The translations under genes and the position numbers were made by a program. This document shows, in pieces, positions 39,920 to 40,541 of a stretch of DNA of 64,000 nucleotides. Position 1 is the first letter of the stretch; the number at the start of each line of letters is the position of its first letter. Under the pieces are notes generated by a model. The model did no database searches. It was not told the DNA's origin and was given only the letters and a program-made list of their open reading frames with translations. This DNA comes from Streptococcaceae bacterium (GTDB taxonomy: Bacteria > Bacillota > Bacilli > Lactobacillales > Streptococcaceae). The stretch is taken from the NCBI GenBank assembly GCA_031270325.1, contig JAISXW010000006.1, forward strand, positions 1 through 64,000, written 5' to 3'.

Positions 39920-40541
39920 AATTTATCGTTTTAATCTCGCACGCATCAAACGAAAACTCAGGTGTTGTGACTTCTGGCTGGCCATTTTGAACAAGCTTAA
40001 CCGGTTTGACATAGGCAGACTGACTAGCAAAGCCTTGACCTTTTTCTTCATCTGTCAAATTTTTAATCACATGAATGCCACCAAATAAAGTCCCTTCAAG
40101 AGCCTCTTGAGGCATCGTTAAATGGAATGTCACGATTTGAGCCATTTTGGGTGCAATTGAAACGCTGGTTTGTTCGGCTTTTAATAAATCAGTTAAACCT
40201 ACTTTTAAAGCAGTCGAACGCTTCTCAGTCGGTGTATAATCAATATCCAAATTATTAGTCGTTGTCGCATTTGTCACATTGATAGTAAAACTTGACGTTT
40301 CATCTGATGTATTCACAATCTGGACTTGCAACTCCGACGTTTGTGCCTGTGGCACGGTTAAATCAAAATATCCCACCCCCTTTTTATTTTCCTTTTGAAA
40401 TGGACTATCCATCAATTTAACAGTGTAACCAACCTCTGAAGCTTGAACTGTTGAAATAAATAATAAGGTTAAAGCAAAACCAATCAATCCCAAAAGAATT
40501 ATTTTAAATCTATATATCGCAGTTTCCTTAATTAAACTCAC
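39858..40541 (-). pseudogene. Truncated DUF916 (WxL-interacting, WxLIP-like) secreted protein
   Basis: A signal peptide (IILLGLIGFALTLLFISTVQA, cut before SEVGY) precedes a DUF916 domain: VGYFDLTVPQAQTSELQVQIVNTSDETSSFTINV and EGTLFGGIHVIKN. DUF916 proteins anchor WxL proteins to peptidoglycan and normally continue into DUF3324 and a C-terminal membrane helix. Here homology stops after PEVTTPEFSFDA and the frame runs on through about 30 codons of cas1 sequence in the wrong frame. The track start is a GTG inside AAGGAGGTG; a better-spaced codon is an ATT seven bases on, so the true start is uncertain. Confidence 0.8.

Follow-up and report, generated by a model that had tools for sequence, protein, structure and literature searches.

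A clean join between truncated DUF916 and type I-E cas1 genes as the probable scar of CRISPR-Cas loss in a genome related to Lactococcus piscium

Introduction

How did the first part of a gene for a DUF916 (WxL-interacting) protein come to abut the last part of a type I-E cas1 gene, and does the composite represent a genuine gene, an error of assembly or the remains of a CRISPR-Cas locus? The two genes are unrelated, both are truncated, and they are joined head to tail on the minus strand of the window, by which is meant the whole stretch of DNA that was analysed (bases 1-64000 of the 74,394-bp contig C12). This contig is part of a draft genome of 1.47 Mb in 40 contigs that is 70.55% complete, and the closest named relatives with respect to its CRISPR locus are Lactococcus reticulitermitis and L. 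piscium. A preliminary description of this DNA had recognized the chimeric junction, a reading that Pfam matches and 83% Cas1 identity confirm, and had proposed a single rearrangement, with a nearby IS66 remnant as its possible agent. A literature search found no paper on this locus. The features discussed are listed in Table 1.

Table 1. Features around the DUF916-cas1 join (window coordinates)
Feature	Position	Strand	Basis or remark
carB	45045-41857	minus	
Stretch without an intact gene	~1.3 kb, between carB and the DUF916 fragment		
IS66 C-terminal element remnant	about 41506-41580	plus	Pfam, 3e-5
Decayed copy of the lplA start and its divergent neighbour's leader	40692-41117		71% identical to the intact region at C34:4398-4855 of this genome (G000)
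DUF916 gene, 5' part	39894-40541	minus	Pfam PF06030; homologue in G025; frame open to the stop at 39858
Join	39891-39896	minus	Compared base by base with cas1 from five relatives and with the G025 DUF916 gene
cas1, type I-E, 3' part (codons 74-313)	39173-39893	minus	Homology
cas2-DEDDh (DnaQ-like) exonuclease fusion, 300 aa	38267-39169	minus	Pfam Cas_Cas2CT1978 and RNase_T
Type I-E CRISPR array	37180-38246	minus	18 repeats, 17 spacers
Degenerate repeat-like sequence past the far end of the array	36961-36990		60% match; chance possible

Results

Comparison with intact cas1 and DUF916 genes, as the preliminary description had recommended, located the breakpoint to within 2-3 bases and uncovered no IS ends. 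The changeover from DUF916 to cas1 falls at 39893/39894; no bases are inserted between the two homologies, and no more than 2-3 are ambiguous or shared. In DNA searches of the genus with the junction region, relatives match only from 39892-39894 downward, each of these strong matches being to cas1, and the match to the DUF916 gene of genome G025 reaches down to 39891. Base by base, GCAACAGTT resembles DUF916 and CGGAGATACGGG resembles cas1; written out on the minus strand, the join is GTGGTCGCAACAGTT followed directly by CGGAGATACGGG, and the window across it reads GTGGTCGCAACAGTT CGGAGATACGGGAAC, where the counterparts are GCTGCAACAATTAGCAATACC in the DUF916 gene of G025 and GAATTAATCGGAGATACGGGTACA in L. 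piscium cas1. The L. piscium DNA upstream of the codon at which cas1 is broken has no continuation in the window. These comparisons revise several details, as the interval 39920-39960, to which the junction had been assigned, is wholly DUF916 DNA and lies 30-65 bases from the actual join, and the DUF916 frame reads 11 codons into cas1 DNA before its stop, rather than the approximately 30 described. The TAA that was thought to open the cas1 fragment ahead of its first ATG lies, as does that ATG, in out-of-frame DUF916 DNA, where the series TAA, ATT, ATG is DUF916 sequence read in another frame.

There are no direct or inverted repeats of at least 10 bases around the join (39740-40040), the junction word is unique in the window, and the junction region has a single match in the assembly. 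A single-copy junction without repeats is consistent with illegitimate end joining that needed little microhomology or none, and speaks against homologous recombination, an IS end or a repeat-driven assembly error. A search of plasmids with the junction DNA returned a cas1e match alone, in Lactobacillus intestinalis, and the region around the join has no match in Rfam.

An origin of the join in assembly, such that it would be absent from the organism, has to be considered for a 40-contig, 70.6%-complete draft that is the single assembly of its species, in which one contig holds several odd joins and the junction sequence has no match in IMG/VR. Nevertheless, the junction DNA is single-copy and repeat-free, and thus offers no shared word to mislead an assembler, the join is well inside a 74-kb contig, and the same style of decay is seen at many places in the surrounding genome, so a chimeric contig appears quite improbable.

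The proposal that IS66 mediated the rearrangement draws on the C-terminal element remnant 1.6 kb from the join. An IS66-like sequence is indeed present there, although its Pfam match (3e-5, 24.5 bits) falls below the curated cut-off of 30 and its transposase match is at 4e-4. As this fragment is a scrap of C-terminal coding sequence that is not adjacent to the join, where IS ends, target duplications and inverted repeats are all lacking, nothing ties it to the breakpoint; IS66 was rejected as the agent, and its involvement is considered highly unlikely.

On one side of the join, the DUF916 fragment (Pfam score 6.5e-27) has 43% amino acid identity to the full-length, 356-aa homologue of G025, which extends ~130 residues beyond the truncated protein, and this homology stops at 39891-39894. 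The remnant extends from the first domain into the start of the second (DUF916 plus DUF3324), as opposed to both domains plus an anchor, and would have lost most of the second domain and the C-terminal membrane anchor. No free C-terminal DUF916 piece was found in the assembled genome, and homologues on plasmids are at most about 35% identical. Separately, the GTG called as the start of the fragment (40541) overlaps a good ribosome-binding sequence, AGGAGGTGAG, so the real start probably lies downstream or no longer exists.

On the other side, the cas1 fragment is 83% identical to residues 74-313 of L. piscium Cas1 and is assigned to type I-E, having lost codons 1-73 of the 313 in that gene (L003); its match to solved E. 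coli-type Cas1 proteins, such as 3nkd, likewise begins at residue 69-78, and further solved relatives are 8hi1 and 8fy9. The open reading frame as called (39173-39919) has its ATG (39919) supplied by DUF916 DNA, and the first 8-9 residues of its predicted 248-aa product (MRNEWSQQF) come from out-of-frame DUF916 sequence instead of Cas1. The motif GREGAR and a second, 13-residue motif that carry the likely catalytic residues are present. The Cas1 catalytic residues are taken here to be E141, H208, D218 and D221 in E. coli numbering, positions that were read as E82, H149, D159 and D162 of the reading frame by applying throughout the offset of 59 implied by where the 3nkd match starts. The codons for the N-terminal domain of an integrase are absent.

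Both frames are open and the cas1 frame has an ATG, as would be seen if this were a genuine gene, either a DUF916-Cas1 fusion or a variant of Cas1 that has acquired a new N-terminus. Yet DUF916 and cas1 are in different frames, all that stands before the Cas1 part is 8-9 residues read out of frame from DUF916 DNA, and the cas1 of related Lactococcus keeps its own intact N-terminus. Conservation of the fused arrangement in other genera would have spoken for a real gene; the relatives examined lack the arrangement, and we give this interpretation almost no credence.

Downstream, the cas2-DEDDh reading frame is intact and 67% identical to the L. piscium gene. The array repeats are identical, 28 bp long and separated by spacers of 33-34 nt, an organization that was scored as conforming to type I-E (28-29 bp repeats with 32-33 nt spacers). 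Comparison of the spacers with all loci in the data set, local phage remnants included, gave only chance-level matches of 12-18 bases, and two unannotated phage records match the array, apparently through repeats of similar sequence.

The interference genes are a different matter. Protein searches for Cas3 and Cas7 found nothing in the 70.6%-complete assembly, whereas the same Cas3 query detected four relatives in the genus (G006, G007, G008 and G011) at 71-100% identity; for cse1, cse2, cas5 and cas6, a search at the DNA level likewise gave no match. The cas3 and Cascade set of type I-E (cse1, cse2, cas7, cas5, cas6) was thus not found in what was assembled, and with Cas3 and Cascade gone the array should give no interference. 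Loss of the Cas1 N-terminal domain makes acquisition very unlikely, so it is very probable that the shortened Cas1 cannot acquire spacers, and the array may be viewed as an orphan in the making. It is conceivable that the truncated Cas1, initiated at a codon within DUF916 DNA and expressed from the DUF916 promoter with translational coupling, works with Cas2-DEDDh as an acquisition-only cassette, which would mean that a minimal cassette functions without the Cas1 N-terminal domain; we regard this as very doubtful.

In the four relatives, mutS2 is directly followed by cas3, after which come the remaining operon genes, cas1, cas2 and the array; G006 and G011 have an ABC-F gene past the array. 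Here, mutS2 is on another contig (C4), where ~1.2 kb lacking any clear gene separates it from gltA, acn and icd, and the ABC-F gene is on a third (C30), with other genes upstream of it; the stretches read near mutS2 and ABC-F contain no cas remnants. In addition, pyrK, pyrD and pyrF lie beyond carB in each of the five relatives examined, with or without other genes in between, whereas here carB is followed by debris, including the lplA-start copy and the IS66 scrap, without pyrK-pyrD-pyrF. The separation of mutS2 and ABC-F onto other contigs and the loss of pyrKDF from beside carB indicate that the region has been rearranged, and that the CRISPR locus is displaced as well as cut. The claim of a single rearrangement thus holds for the join itself, which is one clean event with no intervening bases between genes of which cas1 is intact in relatives, and does not extend to its surroundings: with phage fragments at 35.4 kb added to the broken synteny, events beyond the join at 39893 are required, and this one event is insufficient for the whole rearrangement.

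Other features of the genome were observed along the way. Two phage head-gene fragments come after the array, encoding minor head proteins phrog_115 (34183-35352, minus strand) and phrog_581 (35447-36613, plus strand); they lie head to head, both apparently without their N-termini, and the space between them (~35350-35450) is probably another rearrangement junction. Interspersed repeats following mutS2 (L047 2634-3861, C4) match at ~40 sites in this genome and at few in relatives. Long minisatellite arrays, open in several reading frames, are found at several intergenic positions, with periods of 21, 42 and 105 bp in L086 9845-10488 (C30:46844-47487) and further sites at L047 9166-9686 and L087 around 11244-11720. 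Open reading frames cover 77-86% of the stretches of this genome, versus 90-92% of the carB region in relatives.

Discussion

The join is probably the scar of an illegitimate recombination event that cost a genome related to L. piscium its interference genes and half of a DUF916 gene. End joining with 0-3 bases of microhomology would have fused the 5' part of the DUF916 gene to codon 74 of cas1, in a decaying and reshuffled genome. At or before this join, the locus would have lost cas3, cse1, cse2, cas7, cas5, cas6 and cas1 codons 1-73, and the DUF916 protein its C-terminal half; the cas1 fragment, an intact cas2-DEDDh and a fresh-looking array would have been left over as a presumably inactive Cas remnant.

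The nature of this event needs to be weighed with care. A deletion must contend with an incomplete assembly, as the missing genes could sit in unassembled DNA, and a simple one needs a DUF916 gene in the same orientation upstream of the cas operon, where relatives have mutS2. A locus away from its usual place after mutS2, synteny that is broken at carB, mutS2 and ABC-F, and an incomplete assembly would also accommodate a reciprocal inversion or translocation, in which the 5' portions of the cas operon were joined to the 3' portion of the DUF916 gene elsewhere, in sequence that was not assembled. Against such an exchange, the assembled genome has neither a Cas3 or Cas7 fragment nor a free DUF916 C-terminus, and the entire DNA upstream of the break in a relative's locus matches mutS2 alone, so a reciprocal event is unlikely. 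Our inference is a deletion, perhaps preceded by relocation, in preference to a translocation into DNA missing from the assembly.

Relative to the age of the genus, this break is a recent one, because the remaining cas1 resembles intact copies in its dN/dS (0.05-0.08 against intact relatives and 0.05-0.06 between intact copies, rough values as dS is saturated) and the 18 repeats do not differ from one another. No additional stop codon interrupts either truncated frame.

This is ordinary CRISPR-Cas loss, a scar of genome decay, and the join alone raises no new question. Its value is as a clear and recent example of type I-E loss, in which the interference genes are gone, the array and cas2 are pristine, and the breakpoint is pinned to within 2-3 bases.

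Compared to the type I-E system with Cas2-DEDDh of L. piscium DSM 6634, the locus has the same cas1-cas2/DEDDh-array order, a closely similar Cas1 and a 28-bp repeat that differs in the loop only, and departs from it in the lost start of cas1, the absence of detectable cas3 and cas7 and of any DNA match to the remaining interference genes, and the distance from mutS2. Enterococcus faecalis CRISPR2 is an orphan array without a working cas set (PMC4580645), and the present array was similarly retained after interference genes were lost; unlike CRISPR2, it still has cas1, though broken, and an intact cas2 beside it, so the loss appears recent.

The most direct parallel in decay is within the genus, where the eroded type I-E locus of G006 (L049, C1:767500-787000) also has breakpoints inside cas genes and gene pieces joined to one another. 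A deletion of ~3.35 kb joins cas3 to cse2 in G006, and another of ~0.3 kb, which crosses a short shared TGATG, joins cas1 to cas2-DEDDh. The resulting fusions (5549-7183 and 9607-11127) link Cas3 (about residues 1-418) in frame to Cse2 (66-190), and a near-complete Cas1 to Cas2-DEDDh from residue 79 as a 506-aa Cas1-exonuclease fusion, in which the deletion takes out most of the Cas2 domain. In contrast to the genome analysed here, both pairs of pieces are in frame in G006 and its locus is still found after mutS2; these separate deletions suggest that the type I-E locus has been lost repeatedly in this genus.
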